From NCBI GenBank assembly GCA_003259005.1, contig QLII01000001.1, positions 7,369,001-7,433,000 of the forward strand: 64,000 nucleotides of DNA. The letters are read 5' to 3'. Shown piece by piece: positions 14,229 to 29,028 of the stretch (the stretch's first letter is position 1; every line of letters starts with the position of its first letter). A program made the translations under genes and the position numbers. Under the pieces are notes generated by a model. It saw nothing but the letters and a program-made list of their open reading frames with translations, was not told the DNA's origin and did not search any database. Origin of the DNA: Spirosoma telluris. Lineage in GTDB: Bacteria; Bacteroidota; Bacteroidia; Cytophagales; Spirosomataceae.

Positions 14229-15229
14229 ATGGCCGATCAGCCTAACTGGCTTCATAAATTAGGTAATTTGCTGGTGCCCTCCAGCCAGCCCCCAACCGTC
14301 TCCAGTGGTAAAGTAACTAACAAACGGATACTGGACGAGTTGGTGGCCTCGTTCGAGGATTCCATCCATCGGGAATCGGTTGGGACAAGTATGCTGTTCA
14401 ATGCCCACTTTCTTGTTATCCTGCATCCGGATACCTACGAGGAGCGCCAAAATGCCTTTCCGGTCATTGTTGATGAAGCCGTGAAGTCCTTTAAGGCGAT
14501 TATCGAGTCGCAGAAAGGGCAGTATGAACGGGTAGCACCCGTGGCCTCAAGCTGGTTTTTTAAGTTTGGGGGTGGTCGGGAATTTGGGGTGAAGAAGTCA
14601 CGCCTTCGGATGTCTACGTTGTGGGGGCGCTGACGGGTATTCTGCCTGGGAATGAACAACGGCAGGTGCCGGATAAACTGCACGTAACCCGTCGGGTCAA
14701 ACAAACTAACCGCTACGAAAAAGTGGACGTTGACCTGAACACGTTTCAGCATATCGACTTTCGCGAGCCGGGTGCGTTTGTGGTAAAGTTTAAATTTGAT
14801 TCGTCGCCCGCCCTAAACGAACGGCCACCGATGCCGGGAGCTGCCACCCGAAATGCGACAGCCTTACCGCGTAGTCTTGCCGCCGGACTGGCTGAGATCA
14901 CCTACTACATTGCCGAATTAAACAAAGAGGATGCGTACCTGATGCGCGACCGGGAAATTGTGGTGGCCCGGAAGGAGCCCGATAATCAGCATTTTCCAAA
15001 TTATCTACTACTCGAATCGGCCTACGTATCGAACCCACATGCCCGCATTCGGTACGATGATGCAACGCAGAGCTTTCAACTCGCGTCATTCAGCCGAAAT
15101 GAAACCCGCGTTAATGAACAGCTTATTCCGCGTAGCGAACCCGCCAGCCCTCAGTGGTACGCCTTACCCGACAAGGCCCAGATTCTGCTCAACAGTATGG
15201 TTACGCTAAACTTTCAACGGACTGCCTGA
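14229..15229 (+). CDS. FHA-domain protein with FhaA-like architecture
   Basis: Reconstructed as about 333 residues after adding one G to the run 14586-14589, which restores EFGGEEVTPSDVYVVGALTG. The C-terminal third (residues about 235-330) is a forkhead-associated domain, which binds phosphothreonine: SNPHARIRYDD carries the conserved Ser-x-x-His, RNETRVN the Asn-x-Thr and LLNSMVTLNF the last strand. The usual Gly-Arg at the start is VVARKE, so the first loop is not canonical. The N-terminal region (NAHFLVILHPDTYEERQNAF) is arranged like the DUF3662 part of actinobacterial FhaA, but that match is only by eye. It opens the cluster with the PP2C phosphatase and kinases, so phosphorylated kinase tails are likely partners. 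Confidence 0.8.
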
Positions 15230-15231
15230 CA

Positions 15232-15315
15232 ATGATCGATGCGCTGCTTGTTTTCCTACTGCTTCTGTTCGTTGTGTTCTTGGTCTTGAAACATTTTCAG
15301 GATTTACCTAGATAA
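15232..15315 (+). CDS. Putative 27-residue single-pass membrane peptide
   Basis: ATG 15232 opens a 28-codon frame encoding MIDALLVFLLLLFVVFLVLK followed by HFQDLPR and a stop. It starts three bases after the FHA stop codon and is almost entirely one hydrophobic helix with a short basic/polar tail. Position and composition suggest a translated membrane microprotein, but there is no homology to rely on. Confidence 0.4.
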   Translation: MIDALLVFLLLLFVVFLVLKHFQDLPR

Positions 15316-15326
15316 TATAGTAACGC

Positions 15327-15385
15327 GTAACGCGGGTGGAAACCCGCGATTTTATATCAGAATCGCGGGTTTCCACCCGCGTTAC
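15327..15385. repeat. Perfect 25-bp inverted repeat abutting the PP2C start codon
   Basis: Arm 15327-15351 (GTAACGCGGGTGGAAACCCG then CGATT) is exactly complementary to arm 15361-15385, with a 9-base loop. The second arm ends three bases before the ATG at 15389, so the hairpin would occupy the ribosome-binding region of the phosphatase gene. Each arm also holds a smaller palindrome (CGCGGGTGGAAACCCGCG). Confidence 0.85.
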
Positions 15386-15388
15386 TCC

Positions 15389-16839
15389 ATGAATTCATTA
15401 CTATTTGCCGGTCAGACCGACGTAGGTAAACGCCGAAACGATAACCAGGACACCTTTGTCTGTTCAACTATTTGGGCAGAAACCACTGCGTTATTGGCGG
15501 TAATTGATGGCGTTGGGGTTATGCCGGGGGCGACCGGGCTGCGGCTATTGCGAAGGAGTCGATTGAACAGTACATGGCCACGCCTAATGGTAATCCCTTG
15601 TCGATGCTACGCGAAGCGGTCGTATTTGCCAATAATCAAATCAACCACCAGCGGCAGCAGGAGCTTCGATTAGCGCAGATGTGTTGTGTACTGACTGCCG
15701 CTGTTGCGGATAGTCAGTCGGGGAAATTGTATTTTGTTCATGTGGGCGATACCCGCTTATATCGGTATCGTCAGGGAGTTCTGGAAAAGCTTACCTACGA
15801 TCACTCGCTGGTGGGCGTTCGGGAAGATGCCAATGAACTCACCGAAGCTGAAGCCATGCAGCATCCGCGCCGGAACGAAATTTTGCGGGATGTTGGCTCA
15901 ATGGCCCACCGGGTCGATGATCCTGATTTCCTGGAGTCGGGCGAAACCGATTTCCTGCCAGGCGATCAGTTGCTGCTCTGTAGCGATGGCCTGACGGATA
16001 TGATTACGCAGGCTCAAATCAAGGCAGTGCTGGATCAAAAACTTACTCTGGAGCAGCAGACGGCCGAACTGATTCGATTAGCCAATGAAGAGGGCGGCAA
16101 CGATAATATTACGGTCGTTCTCGCCAAAAACAACGCACTCGCAGCCGACCGTTCGACCGCTTCAGCTAAGGCAGACAATCCACCCACGCCAAAACAGCCG
16201 CCCGTGCCTGTTTCAACAGTTGCTCACCAATCGGCTTCAGTCGGAACAAAACCAGCCAGGAAGCGTTCAACTGGGTTATTGGCCCTGTTTGGGGTGTTAC
16301 TAGTCGGGCTAATTGCAGCAATTGTGTGGTATCAATATCAGCCCTCCAGCCAATCCACTACAACGATGGCCGATAGTCTACCCGTCAGCAGCCAACCCAA
16401 TGCGACATCGGTGGTGACGGAAGTAGCTTCCCGGCTCGATTCATTGCTACAAATCGCTTACCGAAGTAATGACCATCGCCTGATTTTGCCTGCCGACACA
16501 TTTCGGCTCAACAAACCTCTGCTGGTAAGTGATTCGTTGCAAGGCATTGTGGGCGATAACCGGCTAACGGTCTTGATGCCCGCCGATTCGGCGCATGCAC
16601 AAGTGGCGTTACGAATCAACCGATCAGGAACTGTACAGCTAGAAAATATGGTGATCAGTGGGTTCAAGACGGGTATTGAGACAACCACCGATGTGAAATT
16701 ACAACTCTCAAAGATGTACTTTAAAAACGTGGGTTTGCCCATTAGCGCGGCTGTTCGGCAGGACACTTTTCGCAAAGCCGTTGTTACATTTTCGGTGCAA
16801 AAACAGCCTGATTCAACCCAAAAAACACGACGTCCCTAA
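15389..16839 (+). CDS. PP2C-type Ser/Thr protein phosphatase with membrane anchor and outer domain
   Basis: Reconstructed as about 483 residues after adding one G to the run 15515-15518, which restores IDGVGGYAGGDRAAAIA. PP2C motifs appear in order: QTDVGKRRNDNQD near the start, DGVGGYAGG, VHVGDTRLYRY, LCSDGLTDM and EGGNDNITVVLA, giving the metal-binding Asp residues of a PPM phosphatase. A Pro-rich linker and a transmembrane helix (residues about 294-318, LLALFGVLLVGLIAAIVW) follow, then about 165 residues outside the membrane with repeats like a right-handed beta-helix (LENMVISGFKTGI). It should dephosphorylate the neighbouring kinases, like actinobacterial PstP, which also has a transmembrane helix. 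Its TAA overlaps the next ATG (TAATG at 16837), so translation is coupled to the first kinase. Confidence 0.88.
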
Positions 16840-18391
16840 TGTCCACGATTCGATTTGATACGCGGTTTCCTGGTTACGAAGTGCTGAGTGAATTAGGCCG
16901 CAGTAACGCACGCATTCTGAAGGCGCGTCACCTGGCCACGGGCGATCTGGTGGCCATTAAACACTTTGCGCTGAACACCGATGCCGATACACTCCGACGG
17001 TTTCAGCGGGAGTCGGCTATTATGACCAGCATTGCCCATCCCAATATTGTGAAGGTGCGGGAGGTTCAATTGGAAGCTGAGTTGCCCTACCTGGTTATGG
17101 AACTGATTGAGGGGGAAGTCTGGCCCAACTCATCGCCGAACAGAGTCCGCTGGACGTATCGACCACCATTCGGTTGGGGCTGCAAATGGCCAGCGCGTTT
17201 AAGGCAATTCATCCGCAGGGCATCGTTCACCGGGACATTAAGCCCGAGAATATTTTGTTTCGGCCACTACCTAGTGGCGAACTCCATTTTCTACTAACGG
17301 ACTTTGGTGTGGCCCGCCTGCACGAGCAATCCAATACGTTGACAGGTCAGTCGCTGATGACCTACGAATACGCGTCGCCCGAGCAGTTCAATGACCCACG
17401 GGGCGTAGGCGTGGCAACGGATTATTACTCCTTAGGCGTGGTCTTGTATGAGTGCCTGCATGGAAGTGTACCGTTTGCGTTAGACGACCACACGGGCATC
17501 GTAACCTTCATGAATAAAGTGCTTACGGAAGCCCCGCCCGCCCTGACAATTTCGACGACCGACCAGACACTTAGCCCGTTTGCAGACCTGCTTCAGGGAT
17601 TATTGCAAAAGAAAGCCACCGACCGAGTAAGTGATCCTGAGGAATTAACCTGGTTGATCAAGCAGGCTGAACTGAACTATTTACGGGCCAATCGTTCCAG
17701 CTCTACACGACCTTCAACTCCAGAGCCAACAAAGCCCGAAGCCACCAGCGAGCCAAAACAAAATATAGCTGAGGTGTCAACCGCGGTTCCTGCGGAGGTG
17801 AAGCCTGTTCTGATTCGAAGCCACCGTAAGCCAAAGACAGGCGGGCTAAACTGGCCCCTACTTGTACTTGTTGTTGTGCTTGGCGGCATTGGCCTGTATT
17901 ACGCCATTCTCAAACAGAAAGCCCGTAATCCAACAAGTCTTGCCGACACACCAATTACTAACGCAGATACGTCTGGACGGCCTCATTTGAAAGAGGAAGT
18001 GGCACTTCATCAGCAGGAAGCGGAGGAAGCCATACGACAGGAACAACTTAGACAGGAAGCATTGGCTGCGGTTAAGGGATTGACTGTCAAGACGAATGAT
18101 TATCGGGTTGGTTTATTCGGCGGGATCAAAAACGTGCAACTTCAACTGACGAATCCAAGCCCGGTTATGTTTTCGTCCGTCGTAGTTCGGGTGAATTATT
18201 ATAAGGACGGCGGTGGTCTGTATAAATCGGAGAAGGTGTATTTCAACGATGTTGGGCCAAAGTCGTCGTTAATACAAACCGCACCCAACAGCGATCGGGG
18301 GACCAAACTTACCTGCAAAATTGTCGAACATCAGTTTGCCCCGCCCCTGGATTCCCTAATGACTGCTGCTTCATCAGACTCGTTAAATTAA
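16839..18391 (+). CDS. Membrane Ser/Thr protein kinase 1 (Hanks/PknB-like)
   Basis: Reconstructed as about 517 residues after adding one G to the run 17111-17115, which restores ELIEGGSLAQLIAEQSPLD. The kinase domain covers residues about 10-270: VAIKHF (Lys41), HRDIKPEN (Asp133), DFGVA (Asp155) and the activation-segment sequence TYEYASPEQF. A juxtamembrane stretch rich in Pro and Thr follows, then one transmembrane helix (about 337-360) and an outer C-terminal domain of about 155 residues with a beta-rich part (VQLQLTNPSPVMFSSVVVRV). There are no PASTA repeats. The topology is that of a receptor kinase with the catalytic domain inside. It sits between its likely phosphatase and a paralogous kinase. 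Confidence 0.9.
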
Positions 18392-18398
18392 TTGACCC

Positions 18399-19681
18399 AT
18401 GCCAACCGTAAGCGTCAATACGCATTTTCCGGGTTACGAAATCATCGGCGAACTGGGCCGCTCGAACGCTCGTGTGCTGAAGGCACGCCATCTGGCAACG
18501 GGCGATTTAGTGGCAATAAAACACTTCACGCTCAACACCGATGCTGATACGCTTCGGCGGTTTCGGCTCGAATCGCAATTGATGACCGATATTCAGCATC
18601 CGAATGTTGTGCGGGTGCGGGACGTGCAATTGGACATGCCCATGCCGTTTATTGTCATGGAATGGGTTGAGGGCGGAAACCTGCGTACACTTCTGGGTGA
18701 ACAAGGCTATCTGGACGTATCCAATACCATTCGATTGGGGTTGCAAATGGCCGAAGCCTTTAAAGTAATTCACGCTCGTGGCATTATTCACCGCGACATC
18801 AAACCCGAAAACATTCTCTTCCGGCCATTGCCCAGTGGCGAACTCCATTTTCTGCTGACAGACTTTGGCGTAGCCCGCATTCGCGAACAGTCGCAAACGA
18901 TGACGGGGCAATCCTTAATGACGTATGAGTATGCGTCGCCGGAGCAGTTTGATAATCCACGCGGTGTCGATGAGGCCACGGATTACTATTCGTTGGGTGT
19001 GGTTTTGTATGAATGCCTGTCAGGGAAAGTGCCGTTTTCGATGACCGACAGTGCTGGAATTGCCACGTTTATGGGGCACGTATTGCGCACGCCACCTCCA
19101 GCTTTGGTGCTGCCATCGGGCAAAAGTGTGCCCCCAAGTCTGGATACAATTTTGGAATGGACGTTAGCCAAAAATCCAGCCGAACGACTGAGTGATGTAA
19201 ACGAACTCGTGTTTCTGCTAGGGCAGGCCAATGTGGAGCAGTTGCAGGCCAGTCGATCTGTGGAGCGTCGGATACCCGTTGCGTCACGCACGATGACTGC
19301 CCCAGTGTATGCACCCAGACAGTCGGAGCCAGTCATTTCAATGCCGGAAGAGGAACCCCGCGTAGTTCAACCAACTGGACTATTGGGCTGGCTTTCTTTT
19401 TTGTGACCTTGCTGATCGGGCTGGCCGTTTTGTACAAAATCTACTGGCAAGACAATACTAAAGAACATCCTGCTGTATCGGATTCGACCTCGGTAGTCGC
19501 TGATTCATCGGATACCAGCACGATGGCAGACGATACGACGGAAACCTCACCCGATTATCCGATTGAGACTACTACTGATACGACCACAACGGAAAGCAAT
19601 TCGGAACCAATACCGGAACCGCCGACAACTACTATACCCGATTCATCTAGTACGGTTGTTGATACGACGAGGACGTTTTGA
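18399..19681 (+). CDS. Membrane Ser/Thr protein kinase 2 (paralog of kinase 1)
   Basis: Reconstructed as about 427 residues. The frame breaks at the T-run 19397-19402, inside the transmembrane helix; one added T gives LSFFVTLLIGLAVLYKIYW. The kinase domain is nearly the same as in kinase 1, with Lys41 and the HRD Asp at 133 in identical positions and ARHLATGDLVAIKHF shared, so the pair arose by tandem duplication. The outer tail (about 75 residues) is quite different: acidic and very rich in Thr, Ser, Asp and Pro (TTTESNSEPIPEPPTTT), a low-complexity stalk rather than a folded sensor. It starts 7 bases after the kinase 1 stop and is clearly in the same operon. Confidence 0.88.
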
Positions 19682-19720
19682 TTATGAAATTAAAATCCCT
19701 GAAAGGATGCTAAACCTGGC

Positions 19721-19848
19721 GTTGCTAGTGTCTTCGATAGCATCCCTGCTGTCGAGCCGTCAGGCTAAATTAGGTCGATTAATACTTGTTTATCAAATGT
19801 TTAGCCTAGCGGCTCGACAGCAGGGATGCTGTCGGAGACAATTGTCAA
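19721..19848. repeat. Palindrome, GCATCCCTGCTGTCGAGCC family (copy 1)
   Basis: Left arm 19721-19768 (core ATCCCTGCTGTCGAGCC then TCAGGCTAAA) pairs with right arm 19800-19848 (core GGCTCGACAGCAGGGATGCT). The arms and the downstream flank TCCTACAAGATTAG recur at 59536-59680 (TCCTACAAGCTTAG), 40 kb away. Confidence 0.85.
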
Positions 19849-19923
19849 ACTCCTACAAGATTAGTTCCCTTAATTAAGTCAAATCAAGTAGAGGGTTTAG
19901 AGATTTAATATCACCACCAACCT

Positions 19924-22900
19924 ATGAATGTAACCTCCGTCCCATCCGGGCGTTTGTATTTATTGGGAGCGTCGGTTCTGTTAGTACTGCTATTGGGGCG
20001 GCTGTATATGAACCTGTTTCCTGTACTAAGTCAGGCTAAAGAAGCCTTTGCCAGTGGTCAGGCGTTACCGCTCAGCGCTGGTCTGAAATCAGCGGCAATT
20101 CAGCGGTTACTTAGCCGTGGCAATTATTACAGCGATCCGAAAGACAGGGCCTTAGTCGCCGATTCGCTGGCCGCCAAGCTCCGGCAAAACGGTTCGCCTG
20201 ATAATCTGGGAACCTTAAACAAGCGGCTGTTTTCGGTACTGGCACCTGTGGCCTGGCGAAGTCGAATTGGCGGTGCCGATTTTCAGAGTCGATTGCAGCT
20301 ATCCCGCCAGCAAATGGGCTTCGACTCCGTATTGTATGTCCGCGAGCTAAACAACCCGAAGCCCTATCCAGCTACCGTTAGCACAGGAAGCGGAACGGAG
20401 GCAATTTCAGGGCGGGTCATGCGCGACGAACAACCGATGGCTGACGTACTGGTACAGCTCAAACGCCATCCTGCTACCGCCCAGCCTGACACGCTCCCTG
20501 ACCAGTTCACCTACGCACGAACAGACGCCGATGGTAAGTTTGCTTTTACGGGGTTGCTAAGCGGCTCTGGCTATAGCGTTGTTCCACTTAAGCCCGGTTT
20601 CGAGTTCGGTAGCCGACGGGGAACAAGCCATCTGACTACAGATCAGATGTATACGTTTACAGCCCGTCGGCATCAACTGCGGCTCATTGGCTCAACGGTG
20701 TATGGGCAACTCAAGACCGACCATGCCTTTGCCGTTCGTACGCCAACTGCCTTCACCACGCAGTTCTGGACAATTGTTGTGTTGTTCATGTTGGTGTTTT
20801 GGACCGTGCAGGGATTTTGGGACATCCGACACTTTCAACCCGACCCGTTGTTATTACCTATTCTGATGTTGCTGACGGGTATATCGGTGCTGACACTCCT
20901 GGCGATTCAGGACCCTTTGCAGGATATGCTTTACGCCTGGCAAACGTTACAGGGTATTGCGCTTGGTCTAATTGGCATGACGATTTTATCCCAACTAAAC
21001 ATCGGTCGCTTCTATGCGGATTGGCGGTTTGACTGGCTGTTCACGTTCCGTAACCGCGCTTCGGTTCGGCTGTCGGGCTGGACTTGGCTGGTACTGGCCG
21101 TTGGTCTGGCGACACTAACTTTGGTTGTCGGTTCGGGGCCGGAGGGTAGTGGCGTTCGGGTAAACCTGTCCATTTTGGGGCTAACCTTTCAACCCAGCGA
21201 GATTACCAAATACCTGCTGCTGATCTTCTTTGCGGGTTTCTTTGCCGCCAATGAGCAACAGATTCGGCAACTGCCCGATTTGCGCTGGCGGTTCCGGGTG
21301 AGTTTTGGTGCACTCGCTGGGGCCGGTTTGCTCATGCTGCTCTACCTGCTGCTGGGCGATATGGGCCCGGCCCTGGTTGTCTGCTTTACGTTTTTACTGT
21401 TTTACAGCATCGCCCGAGGCAACCTGCCCCTAACGCTGGCAACGGGTCTTGGTTATGGCATAGCACTCTGGCTACTACCCGGTTGGATTGCTACGCTATT
21501 GAGTTTGGTAGTGCTAGCTGGCTATATGTACTGGCAGGGTGAGGCTCGTTCACGAACAGGGTTAGGCTGGGCCGCTCTGTTGACCGAAGCTCCCGTATTG
21601 CTCCTGCTGGTGATGGCGATGTTCGCCTTTGGCGATCAGTTACCGTTCGTTGGGAGCCGTCTTGCCGACCGGAAAGCCATGTGGCTCAATCCCTGGAATA
21701 ACGATGTGTATGGGGGCGATCATCTGGCGCATAGTTTCTGGGCATTGGCATCCGGTGGCTGGACAGGGCAGGGGCTGGGAAAAGGATTTGCGAATGCCAT
21801 GCCTGCCGCCCATACCGATATGATTCTGCCCAGCGTGGGCGAAGAGCTGGGCGGGTTGGGTGTTGTGTCTGTGTTCCTACTCGTGGGGATACTGTTGCAC
21901 CGGACCTTGTTGCACGCCCGGCGGGCCGGTCAGCCGTTCAGTTTTTTTCTGGTAGCCGGTATCGCCATTGCCACCGGGGTTCAATTTCTGATCATCGCCA
22001 GTGGTTCTATTGGGCTGCTCCCCCTGACAGGTATTAGCGTACCGTTTCTGAGCTATGGAAAAATCTCTCTGATTATCAACTTAATGGCGATGGGCGTTGT
22101 GTTCGGCGTAGCGCATCGGCCGGGGCAACTGTCGCAACGCCAATACCTGGAAAAGCACTATGATGTAGTCCTGATGGCCGGTATTGCCGGGTTTCTGATT
22201 GGTATACTGGTGCTTATTGGTCGCTTGTTGCCGATTGTCGGCTGGCGTGGTAATGAGTATATTGTACGTCCCGCTCGGGTAGTGACCCGAAACGGTGATC
22301 CTGTATATAGCTATAATCCCCGTATCGAGCGGCTGACTCGCGTGCTGGCGGCAGGCACTGTCTACGACCGGAATGGCCTGGTGCTCGCAACGAGTTCATC
22401 CGGCTTAGTTACGCAGCAATTGGCCCGACTGCGGCAAAGCGGCCTGAAATCCGATCAGATCGAAACGCTCACGCAAAAACGATTGCAGCGGTATTACCCT
22501 TTCGGCGAACACCTGTTTTTCTGGACCGGCGATTTGAATACCCAGCTTTTCTGGGGACAAAGCAATGGATATTATGCCGAGGCTACCCATTTCAGCGAGT
22601 TGCGGGGATTTAATAGCCATCCACGAAAAACGACCCTTGTTGCCACCGACTACCGGGCTGATCGATTCAGCCCAACGGTTCAGCAAACGCGCACACTATC
22701 GGTTTACGATTACAGCGAGCTGGCTCCGGCATTGCGCGCCGGAATTGATAGCCGCGAAGTTGCGGAACGCAAAGCCAAAAACCGTGATCTGCATCTGAGC
22801 GTGAATGCTGAGCTACAAGTGGCGTTACAGAAAGCGTTGGCTCAGTCGGACTACAATACTAAGCGCATTGCGGTTGTCGTGCTGGATGCCGCTTCGGGCG

Positions 22901-23903
22901 ATGTGCTGGCATCCGCCATTCACCCGTTGCCTAACCTCAAAACGCCTGAGGTTATGTTGCTATCGGACCGGGATCGGCTGGAATTGCCGTACCTGGTGAC
23001 CGAACGGGATTTGGGCATGACTTACCCGACAGCTCCCGGTTCGACGGCTAAAATTCTGACGGCGATGGCTGCGTTTAACAAACTGGGTTCATCGGCGTCG
23101 GCAGTTCGTTATCCGATTTCATGCGAAGAAATTATCCGTCGGGGTACGCGGGAGTCGGAACCGTGTGGCGAACTGGTGGATATGCGGAAGGCGATTGTTC
23201 GGTCGAGCAACGTCTATTTTATCCGAGCGGCAAACGATAATGCGCTGGATAATGAACTGACTGATCTCTATTTAGCTACGGGTATGAACGTCGATATGAT
23301 TGGTGGCTACTCCTTCTCGGACACCCACACCGATGCCGAACGTGTTCAGATTCGGCAGCACTGGCGAGACTCTTCGTTTGTGGTGCGCCGGAAGTTGTAC
23401 CAAAGTACGCAGTATCCAAGGCGCTACCGGAGTGAATTTTCGGGTCTGGCCTGGGGACAAGGGCAATTGACCACACCCCCGCTGCGCTGGCTCGAATGGC
23501 AGGTGCGATTGCCAACAATGGGGTGTTGCAACCATCGCGCTACATACTGGATCTGGCCGGAAAACCCAGGCCGATCAGCGCCGGGAAACCCATTGCCCGT
23601 CGGCCCGATTATGCAAAGCAGCTAGAGCAATTCATGATCGAACAATCGAACCCATCGGCGGGACGGAGTAAGATCAGCGTGGCGCGGGTAGCGGGTAAAA
23701 CAGGCACGCCTGAACGGATCGTGCAGGGCGTTCAGCGGAATGATGGCTGGTACGTATTTTTTGCGCCTACGCCTGATGGTCGATCACATACGGTTGTTAC
23801 GGTACGGATCGAACTGGGCGAATCCTCTGCCGATGCGGTCAACTTAGCGAATACCTTAGTGGCACCCATTTTAAAACAGCGTAACTATTTGGGCAGTTTT
23901 TAA
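19924..23903 (+). CDS. RodA/FtsW (SEDS) glycosyltransferase fused to class B penicillin-binding transpeptidase
   Basis: Reconstructed as about 1326 residues after adding one C to the run 23476-23480, which restores TPPAALARMAGAIANNG. Order: N-terminal membrane helix (10-30), a carboxypeptidase-regulatory-like beta domain (about 160-235, ISGRVMRDEQPMADVLVQLK), a multi-helix SEDS domain (about 280-760) with FQPSEITKY, GDMGPALV and the AHTDMIL motif whose Asp632 matches the catalytic Asp of RodA, then a class B PBP (about 778-1326) with AGTVYDRNGLVLA, the nucleophile motif STAK (Ser1040, Lys1043), SSN (1094-1096) and KTGT (Lys1259). SEDS proteins polymerise lipid II and class B PBPs cross-link it; normally two proteins form this pair, here one chain holds both in one continuous frame across the junction. 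It would act in the cytoplasmic membrane and periplasm. It follows the kinases and precedes an FHA gene. Confidence 0.9.
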
Positions 23904-23937
23904 CCGTAACGCGGCCGAAATATCCACGCTACAATAA

Positions 23938-24107
23938 GAAGCTGTTCAAACTTTCTAATTTCTATTGATACTAAATCGATTTTTGTCATTCCGACTTTAG
24001 GAGGAATCTCAAGCTTAACTATTACGGAAGCTTGAGATTCCTCCTAAAGTCGGAATGACAAAAATCGCGCTAATCCTAGTTAGAAAACTAAAAGTTTAAA
24101 CAGCTTC
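23938..24107. repeat. Long palindrome, AAGCTGTT...TTTTTGTCATT family (copy 1)
   Basis: About 170 bases. The outer ends AAGCTGTT and AACAGCTT and the inner arms (TTTTTGTCATTCCGACTTTA / TAAAGTCGGAATGACAAAAA, then GGAGGAATCTCAAGCTT and its complement) give a long, nearly perfect cruciform. Outer and TTTTTGTCATT parts recur at 36276-36395; the GAGGAATCTC part does not. Confidence 0.85.
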
Positions 24108-24121
24108 CAAACAAACTAACC

Positions 24122-24985
24122 ATGAGCTTACTAGAAAAAGTCAAGAACTTATTTGGGTTTGTGCCAGCGAATGAGCGGAGCGAACCATCTCTAACTACCC
24201 CAAAACCAACCCCAGCTGGTCCTCCACCAGCTGCTCAGCTTCGGGAGCAGGTCATGCGGTTTGTGATTAGTAAACTTCGGGCTTACCAGAATGAGCCGGA
24301 TACTGCGCCTGTGGGTCTTCGGTTGTCTGTTTTAGGCACAACCCCTGAGGATGAAGAGTTATACCGGGTCGCTTTATGGGCGAATCAGCCGGGGAAATTT
24401 CAGACTGAACTAACTCGCCAACTGGCTGATAATTACATTACACTGCCTAAAAACTGGCAGTTTGAGTATGCTTTTTTTACAGACGAATTGCCGGAGAGCA
24501 CCTATCAGGAAGGGAACCTGGGTCTGGTCGTAGTCGATAAATCAAAACCGGATCGTTCACCGCTGCTGGCCAGAATCGTTGCCCTAGTTGGTCAGTTGGA
24601 GCAGGAGGAGTATATTCTCGATTCGGCCCAGAAGGCCACGTACTGCATCGGTCGTGGGCATACGACCCAAACGGCATCGGGCCGGGTTCGGACTAATGAT
24701 ATTGTTCTCCTGAATGACGATGATCCGACTTTTAATTCTCAAAAAGGAGCAGGCAATGGGGCTGTTAGTCGAGCGCATGCAACGATCCGCTACGATGTGG
24801 TCCAAAAACGGTTCGCCCTGCTTGTTGATCCGGGCGGACTACCCGCCGGAGGAAACAAAACGAAACTTATACATCCTGACAACACCATTGAGCGCGCTGA
24901 TATTGCCGGAATGAGCTACCCGCTTCAAAGCGGAGACCAGATTGAATTGGGGGGCGAAGTGATGCTCTTGTTTGAGCTGCTGTGA
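24122..24985 (+). CDS. FHA-domain protein, end of the kinase/peptidoglycan cluster
   Basis: An intact protein of 287 residues. The C-terminal domain (about 178-287) is a forkhead-associated domain: YCIGRGHTTQ holds the Gly-Arg, VSRAHATIRYD the Ser-Arg-x-His and GGNKTKL the Asn-x-Thr expected of a phosphothreonine binder, ending with ELGGEVMLLFELL. The first 175 residues start with a Pro-rich stretch and are unassigned; LRLSVLGTTPEDEELYRVAL may be a small alpha/beta domain. It is cytoplasmic, with no membrane helix. A palindrome separates it from the RodA-PBP gene, so it may have its own promoter, but its position suggests it reads the phosphorylation state of the neighbouring kinases or of the RodA-PBP protein. 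Confidence 0.85.
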   Translation: MSLLEKVKNLFGFVPANERSEPSLTTPKPTPAGPPPAAQLREQVMRFVISKLRAYQNEPDTAPVGLRLSVLGTTPEDEELYRVALWANQPGKFQTELTRQLADNYITLPKNWQFEYAFFTDELPESTYQEGNLGLVVVDKSKPDRSPLLARIVALVGQLEQEEYILDSAQKATYCIGRGHTTQTASGRVRTNDIVLLNDDDPTFNSQKGAGNGAVSRAHATIRYDVVQKRFALLVDPGGLPAGGNKTKLIHPDNTIERADIAGMSYPLQSGDQIELGGEVMLLFELL

Positions 24986-25183: not shown

Positions 25184-25196
25184 TAGCTTAGTGCAA

Positions 25197-27625
25197 ATGA
25201 ATACAACGAAATCTCTACTTGGACTCTTATTTTTGTTAAGCACATTGCCCTCGTTGGCTCAACAAACAGCTATTATTCGGGGCCACGTACAAACTTCGGA
25301 TGGGAATCCGGCGGAGGCTGTGACCGTCAGCCTGAAAGGAAAAGGACAAGGAACCATCACCAACGCCAAAGGTGATTTTACGATCAGTCATATCAAACTA
25401 GGAACGTATCAAATTCAGGTGTCGGCTATTGGCCTGAAAACGACTGAGCAAACCGTTACGGTAAACGATGGACAACCCCTGGTAGTCGATTTCACCTTAC
25501 AGGAAAACGCAGCTCAGTTGAATGAGGTAATCGTAAATGGTAGTCGTACCAACCGATTTTCGCGGTCGTCCAGTGACTATGTTTCCAAGATGCCACTGAA
25601 AAATCTGGAAAATCCCCAGGTTTACAATACGATTGGCAAGGAGTTATTGACTGAGCAACTAGTTTTTTCGGTTGATGATGCGATGCGTAACGCACCGGGC
25701 GTCCAGAAAATGTGGGAAGCGACTGGTCGGGCGGGCGATGGGGGAGTTACTACAATACCCGTGGTTTCATTGTACAGAGCCAGCTACGAAATGGCCTGGC
25801 CGGTAACGTCACCAGCGACATCGATGCTGTAAACCTGGAAAAGCTCGAAACCATAAAAGGCCCGTCGGCTACGTTGTTTGGGAGCGCATTGACCTCCTAC
25901 GGTGGTCTGGTCAATCGGGTTACCAAAAAGCCCTATGAAACAGTCGGGGGCGAGTTGACGCTGTCGGCGGGGAGTTACGATTTTCAGCGGGCTAGCCTTG
26001 ATGTGAACACGCCACTCAACAAAAGTCGGAATCTGATGCTTCGCCTGAATACGGCCTTTAATCATGAAGGTACGTTTCAAACACAGGGCTTTAGCCGCCG
26101 GGGTGCACTGGCGCCCAGTCTGTTGTATAAACCCAACGATCGGTTATCGATTCAGCTCGACGCTGAAATTTACCGGATAGAGGGCGTAGGTAAGCAAATC
26201 TTCTTTTTCTATGTACCTGGCTATTCACTCGGCGCTACACGGGCCGATCAGTTACCGGTTGATTATCGCAACTCGTACATGGGTAACGGCCTGACGCAAC
26301 AATCGCGTAGTACGAACCTGTTTGGGCAGGTAAACTACCGAATCTCACCGTCGTTTACATCATCGACTAACCTCAGCACCAGCCATAGCTTCTCTAATGG
26401 GTTCGGGCCTTATTTTTATATTATTCCGGATGGTAAAGTATTGGGCTCCAATCTGTTGGTACGGGCCGATCAATCGACCCGAAACAGTACCAACGATGTT
26501 TTCGAGGTGCAACAACTATTTAATGGCGATTTCCGGCTGGGGAGCCTGCGCAACCGCATGGTTGTCGGTCTGGATTACCTGCACATCAACTCAAATCAAT
26601 TATTCTTTGGCAGTACGTATGATACTGCGCCCATTGCAAAGGATTATGACTACAGTAAATTTAATGGCGCAGCCTTAGCGGCTCTATATGCCAGCAAAAC
26701 GCCCGATTTTATGTATCCGCTCTCGGGCATTAAGGACACGTATAGTGCCTTTGTTTCCGACGTGCTGAACCTGACCGACCAGTTGAGTATATTAGCGGCT
26801 CTTCGGGTCGATGCCTTTCATAACAAAGGAGGCCTTGTTGGTTCGCCAGTAGCTGGCTACAATCAAACAGCGTTTTCACCGAAGTTTGGGGTAGTCTATC
26901 AGCCGCTTAAAGACAAAGTGTCGCTGTTTGCCAACTACCAGAATAGCTTTACCAATCAGGGGATTTATAATGCTTACGATGTAACGGCTTCTGACAGTCT
27001 GACACAGCGTTTTGCCAGGTTAGAACAGGCAAATCAGTTTGAGGCTGGGGTAAAATTGAACGCCCTTAGCGGACGGTTAACCACCACCATCAGTTACTAC
27101 GACATTCAGGTGAAAAACCTGCTTCGTACCGACCCCAATCCGCTGGCGGCTGCCAAATTTGCCCAGACTCAGGATGGTACCCAACTGAGTAGGGGCGTTG
27201 AAATAGACGTGATTGCGAACCCGTTTACTGGTTTCAACGTGGTGGCTGGCTTCTCGTACAATGACTCAAAACTAACCAAGGCCGACGCTGATGTCAATGG
27301 GCGCCGACCTACAACAGCTTCCTCGCCCGTGTTAGCTAACCTATGGCTCAGTTATCGATTTAACGCCTATGGGCTCCGTGGATTGGGCTTTGGATTTGGT
27401 GGTAACTACGCCAGCGACAACAAGATTCAGAACAGTGTCAGTTTAGGCGAGTTTATTCTACCCGCTTATACCGTCCTGAATGCATCGGCCTTCTATGATC
27501 AGCGGAAATTCCGGATTTCCGCCAAAGTAGATAACCTGACCAACCAGCACTACTGGATTGGCTATACCACCATGAACGCGCAGAAACTGCGGAGCTTCGT
27601 GGGAAGCATTGCGTATAAATTCTAG
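25197..27625 (+). CDS. TonB-dependent siderophore receptor
   Basis: Reconstructed as about 809 residues after adding one base at the G-run 25740-25744, which restores GDGGSYYNTRGFIVQ. I use ATG 25197 (MNTTKSLLGLLF), six bases after a GTG in the same frame. Parts: signal peptide ending in SLAQ, carboxypeptidase-regulatory-like domain (residues 20-105), a plug with the siderophore-receptor sequence NTRGFIVQ and VNLEKLETIKGPSATLFG, then a 22-strand-type barrel ending with LRSFVGSIAYKF, whose final Phe is typical. It should import a ferric siderophore across the outer membrane. The next two genes encode a PepSY membrane protein and a small membrane protein, a common iron-uptake arrangement. Confidence 0.9.
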
Positions 27626-27817: not shown

Positions 27818-29028
27818 ATGAGCACAGCCAAACAAGTCAAAACCTGGTTTCAAATCCATAAATGGACAAGCCTGATCTGCACGGTATTCCTGCTCATGCT
27901 CTGCCTGACAGGCTTGCCGTTAATTTTTACTGAGGAGATTGAGGAACTGGAAGGCAGGCCCCCGCTGGCTCCATCCATGCCTGCAGGAACGCCTACTGTA
28001 CCCTTGGAACGACTGGCGGAAACGGTTCGTCAGCAGTTTCCAAAAAACGTCATTCGCTTTGTGTACTGGGATGAGCACGAGCCCAATACGACCACCTTTA
28101 CGTTGTCTGATTCGATGACGGCTCCGGCAGACAACTACAAACTGGTTATCATGGATAACCGCACGGCTCATGTGCTGGAGGAGCCCAAGTTGCAGGAAGG
28201 CTTTATGTACGTAATGCTGCAACTGCACATCAATATGTTCATGGGGCTCAAGGGTGAGCTGTTTCTGGGCCTGATGGGGCTTTTGTTTGTCGTCGCGATT
28301 GTTTCCGGACTTATGCTGTATAGTCCCATCATGCGTCGGTTCGATTTTGGGATGGTCCGAACTGAAAAGTCGACCCGGCTGAAGTGGCTCGATTTGCATA
28401 ACCTGCTTGGCGTGGTAACGGTCGTGTGGGCAACGGTGGTTGGTTTCACGGGGTGATCAATACCTTAGCCGAAGTCGTACAGGGAATGTGGCAGCAGGGG
28501 CAACTTGCCGAGATGGTTGCTCCCTACAAAGGTGCGGCTCCGTTACAGGGTAAACTTAGCCCCCTTGATCAGGCGCTTCAGGTGGCTAAAGAAGCCGCCC
28601 CTGATATGGTCCCCTCCTTTGTGGCCTATCCGGGCACCCTATATTCCAGTCAGCACCACTACGCCGTTTTTATGAAAGGGAACACACCCCTAACGGAACG
28701 ACTGGCTAAACCAGCCCTGGTTGATGCCAAAACAGGTAAACTGACCGATATGCGGAATATGCCGTGGTACGTCAATGCGGTATTCCTTTCGCAACCGCTG
28801 CATTTTGGCGATTACGGCGGACTGCCTCTGAAAATAATCTGGGCTATATTCGACATTATAACGATTGTTGTCCTGTGTAGTGGGCTGTATTTGTGGTTTG
28901 CCCGAAACAAAGCCACCAAAGCCCAGATGGCGCGTATGGAGAAAGCCAAATCGGCTAAAACCAGCAAGCAGTTGGAAGAAACTGAAATACTAACCCTAAA
29001 CACACAGGAGGGAGACTACCGTGAATAA
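27818..29028 (+). CDS. PepSY-associated membrane protein (PiuB/iron-reductase-like)
   Basis: Reconstructed as about 403 residues after adding one G to the run 28450-28453, which restores VGFTGVINTLAEV. The N-terminus (KTWFQIHKWTSLICTVFLLMLCLTG) is the first helix of PepSY-TM proteins, with a His at HKW. Two PepSY-like periplasmic parts and at least three more helices follow (LGLMGLLFVVAIVSGLMLY, LHNLLGVVTVVWATVVGFTG with its conserved LHN, and IIWAIFDIITIVVLCSGLYLW). Such proteins often sit beside siderophore receptors and are thought to reduce or release ferric iron at the cytoplasmic membrane. The gene overlaps the next one by 8 bases. Confidence 0.85.

Follow-up and report, generated by a model that had tools for sequence, protein, structure and literature searches.

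A conserved gene block joining a fused SEDS-transpeptidase to FHA proteins, a phosphatase and Ser/Thr kinases in Spirosoma telluris and other bacteria

Gene content of the block

We analyzed a 64,000-nucleotide stretch of the Spirosoma telluris genome (C1:7369001-7433000 of 9.09 Mb), referred to here as the window. Six genes lie on the plus strand between window positions 14229 and 24985, as identified from a list of open reading frames (ORFs) and Pfam matches. They code for an FHA protein (FHA1), a PP2C phosphatase, two Ser/Thr kinases (K1 and K2), a fusion of a SEDS polymerase to a class B penicillin-binding protein (PBP) transpeptidase, and a second FHA protein (FHA2). This order, strand and set of identities had been proposed in a first-pass annotation made from the DNA letters, and all were borne out. 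The TAATG coupling and the 7-base kinase gap that it described are exact in the sequence: the K1 start overlaps the PP2C stop at 16837-16841, and K1 and K2 are separated by positions 18392-18398. The block from FHA1 to FHA2 is a conserved unit, and its fused protein is a third synthase besides the RodA- and FtsW-type SEDS proteins. The features of the block are as follows.

14229..15229, plus strand: FHA1, an FhaA-like protein with an N-terminal domain and a C-terminal FHA domain, split over frames 14229-14633 and 14621-15229
15389..16839, plus strand: PP2C Ser/Thr phosphatase, split over frames 15389-15673 and 15574-16839
16839..18391, plus strand: Ser/Thr kinase K1, split over frames 16839-17297 and 17174-18391, with a Pfam Pkinase match in both
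16950-16964, 17228-17251 and from 17300, plus strand: K1 motifs VAIK, HRDIKPEN and DFG
18399..19681, plus strand: K2, a second Ser/Thr kinase resembling K1, split over frames 18399-19406 (Pfam Pkinase match) and 19403-19681
19924..23903, plus strand: SEDS-PBP fusion, split over frames 19924-23625 and 23496-23903
21817..21819, plus strand: codon of the presumed SEDS catalytic Asp, D632, in the motif PAAHTDMIL
23041..23043, plus strand: codon of the transpeptidase active Ser, S1040 (SxxK)
From 23203 and 23697-23708, plus strand: SxN and KTGT of the fusion transpeptidase
24122..24985, plus strand: FHA2, a second FHA protein with predicted canonical phospho-binding residues

As judged from hydropathy and Pfam, the fused synthase begins with an N-terminal hydrophobic helix and a segment of about 240 residues. 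After these come the SEDS helices, then a charged stretch of 17 residues and one further helix that leads into the class B transpeptidase. Frame 19924-23625 matches FTSW_RODA_SPOVE (E 2.6e-42) and Transpeptidase, and frame 23496-23903 matches Transpeptidase. The first segment and the transpeptidase are probably located outside the membrane. A weak CarboxypepD_reg-like stretch in the 240-residue segment scores over the cut-off in one relative (L117) and not in Spirosoma. D632, S1040, K1043, S1094, N1096, K1259 and G1261 are invariant in the 10 rows of our fusion alignment (A1), one of which reads KSG. The SEDS Asp and the transpeptidase SxxK, SxN and K(T/S)G motifs are also kept in the fusion rows of the SEDS and PBP alignments. 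We considered a class A PBP and rejected this assignment, as the polymerase domain is SEDS and the Pfam matches contain no other polymerase domain.

The S. telluris genome carries two ordinary SEDS genes in addition to the fusion. Three SEDS genes were found in 12/12 fusion-bearing genomes checked (its own, G121, G541 and nine more), and wherever the two ordinary proteins were included in a tree they fell with RodA and FtsW, respectively. Because RodA- and FtsW-type SEDS are present in all 12, we count the fusion as a third synthase. Two genomes (G582 and G570) contain a third SEDS that is unfused.

The signaling proteins were examined in the same way. The FHA domain of FHA1 lies in frame 14621-15229 and scores 23.0 bits against a Pfam cut-off of 20.7. 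FHA2 is under that cut-off (16.3 bits versus 20.7), and the predicted fold of an FHA2 relative matches FHA domains in a fold search. We scored FHA positions that we take to mediate phospho-binding: FHA2 keeps G, R, S, R and H in 38/38 relatives and N in 35/38, and FHA1 is partly altered, with R in 31, S in 31 and N in 35 of 38. At the FHA2 position in G179, the encoded protein (L117:11390-12802) has a Swt1-like HEPN domain (PF18731, E 1.7e-25) ahead of its FHA domain. The PP2C/SpoIIE match of the phosphatase falls in frame 15574-16839, and by eye the catalytic domain is followed by a hydrophobic stretch and a C-terminal part. The phosphatase of a relative (L027/L050) matches PP2C_2 at 49 bits and has Stp1_PP2C_phos as its best NCBIfam model (E 4.3e-57), yet under the family cut-off. 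Relatives of the phosphatase in the PDB include PstP (2cm1, E 6.8e-24). K1 also has, by eye, a hydrophobic stretch C-terminal of its kinase domain.

Five of the six block genes (FHA1, PP2C, K1, K2 and SEDS-PBP) are each split over two overlapping frames, which could mean that the locus is decaying in this strain. In the close relative L027, the same five genes are unbroken, at 344, 482, 517, 431 and 1326 amino acids. A homopolymer run of 5-6 bases lies within 5/5 named break zones, a count made without a control for run frequency. The neighboring genes at 25191-27625 and 27818-29028, which on inspection by eye code for a TonB-type receptor and for a PepSY-type protein, are likewise split over two frames. 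Because these unrelated neighbors are broken too, indel errors in this assembly are indicated, and together with the single frames of L027 and the homopolymer runs they make assembly error likelier than decay. In each of the 36 other fusion-bearing genomes of the family, the fusion is a single match free of internal stops, although in one genome a contig end truncates it. We therefore regard decay as improbable.

Conservation, gene order and spread

We searched 150 genomes of the family with a fusion profile and found matches above 1500 bits in 37, including the window's genome and one match cut by a contig end (G067). The set recurs in 20 stretches of DNA from relatives, comprising 18 primary loci and two second copies. 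K2 is missing from 5/18 primary loci, FHA2 was not seen beside the fusion in L044 (G108), and L033 has three genes between K2 and the fusion, with FHA1 just beyond the stretch. We used five genes flanking the block in the window as queries against these 20 stretches and obtained one match (L040, 24% identity, far side). Because the flanking genes are not common to the relatives, the shared unit runs from FHA1 to FHA2.

A scan of named genomes yielded 66 loci. The block occurs in Spirosoma, Larkinella, Fibrisoma, Fibrella, Rudanella, Arsenicibacter, Niastella, Longitalea, Flavihumibacter, Mucilaginibacter, Daejeonella and other genera. Among the 58 loci L050-L107, 10 were dropped because their flanks were too short, and all four partners lie close to the fusion in 44 of the 48 Bacteroidota loci with sufficient flank. 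With F for FHA1, P for PP2C, K for kinase, S for the fusion and f for FHA2, the orders in these 44 are FPKKSf (22 loci), FPKSf (13, plus two with an inserted small ORF), FPSfK (three), FPSfKK (two) and KFPSfK (one); one locus has the kinase and FHA2 on the opposite strand. FHA1 was not detected by the ORF caller in L059 and L070, and the upstream module is absent from the stretch in L057 and L067. The L067 record is titled Flavobacterium sp. SUN052, a title that may be wrong; its fusion is 64% identical to the query, near Fibrella values, and genes are inserted ahead of its FHA2.

Fusion and FHA1 also occur together across genomes. Within the phylum, the fusion (E <= 1e-60) and FHA1 (E <= 1e-5) were found in an identical 15/395 genomes spread over six family codes, in a scan that scored only the best two (fusion) or five (FHA1) first-look candidates per genome and so may have missed weak members. 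This co-occurrence gives a Fisher value of 1.9e-27 when relatedness is ignored. In the family sample of 150, 37 genomes have both proteins, 112 have neither and one (G119) has FHA1 only, with FHA1 and PP2C sitting at a contig end. G143 carries FHA1-PP2C-K-K about 75 kb from fusion-FHA2 and keeps all six genes; here, the unit has been broken by rearrangement and retained. There is a negligible chance that the genes are neighbors by accident or through a quirk of this strain: we found no point in its favor, and the synteny across relatives, the second-phylum loci and the co-occurrence all speak against it. The first-pass annotation had named two outcomes that would count against its reading, adjacency only in this strain or a RodA-PBP gene belonging to an unrelated operon, and neither holds. 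Synteny is kept in the relatives, and the genes are neighbors across many genera as well as in another phylum.

That second phylum is of the Eisenbacteria type; the phylum names used here follow the record titles of L110, L111 and L112. Three of its 39 genomes carry the fusion; two of these loci show the full FHA1-PP2C-K-fusion-FHA2 order, and a contig end truncates the third. Two deep members of the Bacteroidota phylum, G162 and G179, carry both FHA1 and FHA2 next to the fusion, with PP2C there too in G179. We looked for a kinase beside the fusion in both stretches and did not find one, so the linkage of PP2C, SEDS, class B PBP and Ser/Thr kinase holds for the block except in these two genomes. 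In Spirosoma oryzicola, all six genes are located on a 136.7-kb plasmid typed as non-mobilizable (L292, NZ_CP089545.1 69767-80323). In the SEDS tree, the second S. luteum locus (L105) falls inside a group of Sphingobacteriaceae rows (99/96). The plasmid copy and the placement of L105 make horizontal movement of the block likely.

The window's genome also contains three more FHA neighborhoods with PP2C- and kinase-like genes (L047, L048 and L049, at about 6.557, 7.473 and 0.759 Mb of G000:C1), in which a SEDS profile found no match.

Origin of the block

We compared the fusions with SEDS proteins and PBPs from other loci. In an 82-row SEDS tree, from which four long rows (L131, L136, L138, L139) were omitted and which holds only two actinobacterial rows, Bacteroidota fusions and those from the Eisenbacteria-type phylum fall in a single clade (100/100). 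A branch with support of 100/99 separates these fusions and the SEDS proteins of Chloroflexota, Bacillota-labelled, clostridial and actinobacterial loci from every RodA and FtsW row; the rows from Chloroflexota and the Bacillota-labelled phylum had been picked as best matches to the fusion profile, which favors this group. In an 83-row tree with the four long rows and without actinobacteria, fusion and locus SEDS group together at 98/87, and at 94/94 with L138. One SEDS found in two frames (L294) was excluded from the trees. With the sampling used, approximately unbiased (AU) tests rejected a grouping of the fusion with Bacteroidota RodA (p 1.5e-117) and with FtsW (p 9e-4). The fusion SEDS also has a shorter loop ahead of its Asp. 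In the PBP tree, which omits the partial row L125, one branch (100/100) sets the fusion transpeptidases apart from every other PBP included, and they stay out of the FtsI/PBP2 clade (99/95). The best PDB transpeptidase for profile A1 is PbpA (3un7, E 1.4e-15), and the best PDB SEDS is FtsW (E 3e-33).

The FHA proteins were compared with FhaA. The FhaA_N profile matches FHA1 of G162 at 29.6 bits (cut-off 25), and it finds FhaA beside SEDS in 5/5 Bacillota-labelled and 5/7 Chloroflexota genomes tested. The FHA1 family aligns over its whole length with Gram-positive-type FhaA (alignments A2 versus A4, hhalign E 7.7e-6, probability 84%), whereas the alignment of FHA2 with these proteins is confined to the FHA part. 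A PDB profile search gave weak FHA matches for the FHA1 alignment (best E 1.6e-4) and nothing under E 0.05 for the FHA2 alignment.

Unfused loci with a similar gene set are also present. L211-L216 have separate genes in the order FhaA, second FHA, PP2C (profile-found in 4/6), SEDS, PBP and kinase, with the full FhaA of L216 located beyond the stretch. The Nonomuraea gerenzanensis locus (L293) reads FhaA, second FHA, PP2C, SEDS, PBP, kinase, kinase. G549, from the Bacillota-labelled phylum, carries a separate SEDS-PBP fusion (L210:8338-11631) that falls with unfused SEDS of that kind, and its locus keeps a PASTA kinase, FhaA and PBP_dimer_2.

On balance, the SEDS trees, the AU tests, the PbpA match, FhaA_N in G162 and the component set of Nonomuraea indicate that the block is a remodelled homolog of the FhaA-FhaB-PstP-RodA-PbpA-PknA/B locus and not an independent assembly. 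Independent assembly would mean that Bacteroidota built the block from their own RodA or FtsW and PBPs with local kinases. The SEDS-PBP fusion is peculiar to these lineages and G549 documents a separate origin of such a fusion, both of which would fit such a history. The 100/99 branch and the AU rejections stand against it, as do FhaA_N in the G162 protein and PbpA as the PDB match, and we consider it very improbable. The first-pass annotation had called the block a Bacteroidota counterpart of the actinobacterial locus, and the same SEDS tree, AU tests, PbpA match and FhaA_N result bear this out. It had left two routes to such a counterpart: the transferred or inherited and remodelled one is upheld, and the SEDS trees and AU tests disfavor the independent one. 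Its label RodA holds in the actinobacterial sense; in the SEDS tree, the fusion is not the ortholog of the genome's own RodA or FtsW.

Several results weigh against a remodelled homolog acting as a phospho-controlled synthase. FhaA_N matches FHA1 of G678 and G657 only below the cut-off and has no match in the window's own genome (G000) or in G121. Foldseek searches with FHA1 and FHA2 models returned FHA domains and, among the best 50 rows each, no FhaA N-domain. Ala replaces the usual Gly before Arg in 30/38 FHA1 relatives, and Gly replaces the Arg in 7/38. The PBP tree does not put the fusion PBP within the PbpA types, and PBP_dimer_2, the PbpA dimerization domain, was found in 1/7 fusions scanned, that one lying outside the fusion clade. 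PASTA domains were absent from 10/10 kinases of fusion-clade loci scanned, and K1 and its relative have none; they are present in 3/3 scanned loci outside the clade. The kinases vary by lineage in subfamily and position. Finally, the ten Chloroflexota stretches beside related SEDS gave one kinase profile match and no PP2C profile match. Because nine of these ten show no kinase, linkage to a kinase is not a uniform feature of the wider SEDS group, and its Chloroflexota side may be linked through FHA proteins alone.

Candidate function and comparison with known systems

We examined the kinases of the block for catalytic motifs. Strict motifs were matched in 66/79, and seven of the 13 non-matching kinases were read. 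Five of these (two from L095 and one each from L099, L100 and L105) have AVK, HGD(I/V)KSNN and DFG; the L086 kinase has AIK with HRDIKPEN, and the L106 kinase has ALK, HRDVKPAN and DLG. L095, L097, L098, L099, L100, L103 and L105, all of Sphingobacteriaceae type, seem to carry another kinase subfamily, with HGD(I/V)KSNN in place of HRDIKPEN in the five kinases read. The G416 kinase located after the fusion (L120:12654-14042) has its own C-terminal FHA domain. FHA1, PP2C, the fusion and FHA2 remain constant while the kinases change. In G328, a PP2C domain is fused N-terminal to SEDS-PBP in a single 1387-amino-acid frame. This fusion and the constancy of the other four proteins suggest, from gene content, that the phosphatase and FHA proteins are the synthase's direct partners.

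We propose that the genes of the block specify a third, accessory peptidoglycan synthase and a Ser/Thr phospho-switch dedicated to it, as a remodelled form of the Fha-PstP-RodA-PbpA-Pkn locus, and we consider this explanation as a whole to be fairly likely. In sequence, the SEDS polymerase and class B transpeptidase are one polypeptide, presumably joined on the cytoplasmic side, and the intact motifs and hydropathy are consistent with a one-to-one coupling of polymerization and cross-linking. K1 and K2 would sense an envelope cue through their non-PASTA outer parts; their targets would be the kinases themselves, segments of the synthase on the cytoplasmic side or a partner in the lipid II pathway. 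PP2C would reverse this phosphorylation. The canonical FHA2 and the FhaA-like FHA1 could dock on phospho-Thr and recruit or restrain the synthase. Phospho-control of the synthase or of an adaptor, with FHA proteins reading the signal, had also been proposed in the first-pass annotation and is a prediction from sequence. The unit is probably conditional, serving extra or repair wall synthesis rather than basic growth or division, because RodA and FtsW are kept and the fusion is patchy (15/395).

The same signaling set could be homologous without having the fused synthase as its output, acting instead on other envelope or lipid II steps while the synthase is co-inherited. PMC6554272 counts PknB, CwlM, MurJ and FhaA among the candidate targets of mycobacterial PstP, the kinases of the block differ in subfamily and place, and the Chloroflexota SEDS relatives mostly have no neighboring kinase. 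Such an output is harder to reconcile with FHA1, PP2C, the fusion and FHA2 remaining together as the kinases change, or with the single PP2C-SEDS-PBP protein of G328. We judge it unlikely, though with a real chance of being correct. We also considered and dropped a type VI secretion set of kinase, phosphatase and FHA protein, which uses the same signaling parts; no search aimed at secretion genes was made, and the annotated S. oryzicola neighborhood contains none.

A broader reading is that a third SEDS class is tied to FHA and Ser/Thr phospho-signaling across Gram-positive- and Gram-negative-type phyla. Its members in Bacteroidota and the Eisenbacteria-type phylum would have become one polypeptide, joined to the phosphatase in one genome, and would spread as a dispensable module, in one case on a plasmid, that switches on an extra wall machine by phosphorylation. 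We hold this reading tentatively, at somewhat less than an even chance, because no neighboring kinase was found for most of the Chloroflexota SEDS in this group.

Ser/Thr phospho-control of wall synthesis has been studied chiefly in Gram-positive-type bacteria. A conserved, probably dispensable Gram-negative copy beside RodA and FtsW would make it possible to remove the switch and reconstruct it in cells that stay alive. The native single-chain SEDS-transpeptidase, with a phosphatase attached in one genome, would be a ready object for structural work and would also suit tests of how phosphorylation acts on a SEDS synthase.

The existence of natural SEDS-PBP fusions is already known. PMC10449877 states that single-ORF examples exist, citing the Rhodococcus RHA1 genome, and this one sentence with its citation is what we found in print among open-licence PMC papers. 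The available parts of PMC8262863 and PMC10920833 contained nothing on natural fusions. According to PMC10449877 and PMC6207328, engineered SEDS-PBP fusions are functional in both B. subtilis and E. coli, and the latter paper describes an active one. We found no description of the Bacteroidota locus in open-licence PMC papers, a scope outside which most subscription papers fall. In comparison with the known natural and engineered fusions, those of the block form a clade spanning many Bacteroidota genera and a second phylum and are accompanied by a phospho-signaling set. The fusion clade over Bacteroidota and the Eisenbacteria-type phylum, its non-PASTA kinases, the phosphatase-synthase fusion and the plasmid copy are apparently new.

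The RodA-PBP2 and FtsW-FtsI synthases share with the fusion the SEDS Asp motif and the transpeptidase SxxK, SxN and K(T/S)G motifs. The fusion differs from both in belonging to a third SEDS clade, in its shorter loop before the Asp, in the covalent joining of its partners and in its linkage to Ser/Thr signaling genes.

The closest known system is the actinobacterial fhaA-fhaB-pstP-rodA-pbpA-pknA-pknB locus, which has the same component set and a homologous SEDS. PASTA domains are a hallmark of PknB-type kinases. The likeness extends to the FHA1-PP2C-synthase-kinase succession, with genes between synthase and kinase, in Sphingobacteriaceae-type loci and to the FhaA_N-FHA protein of one deep member. 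The actinobacterial locus is described in PMC6554272, which also reports pknB-fhaA linkage in a subset of Firmicutes. The block departs from that locus in fusing SEDS and PBP in one frame, where actinobacterial rodA and pbpA are separate. It also has an extra N-terminal segment, lacks PASTA domains and places FHA2 after the synthase, and its kinases lie between PP2C and the synthase in Spirosomaceae, Chitinophagaceae and two Eisenbacteria-phylum loci. The block is accessory to RodA and FtsW and is plasmid-borne in one species. What appears to be new is the fused, accessory and partly mobile form of the locus.

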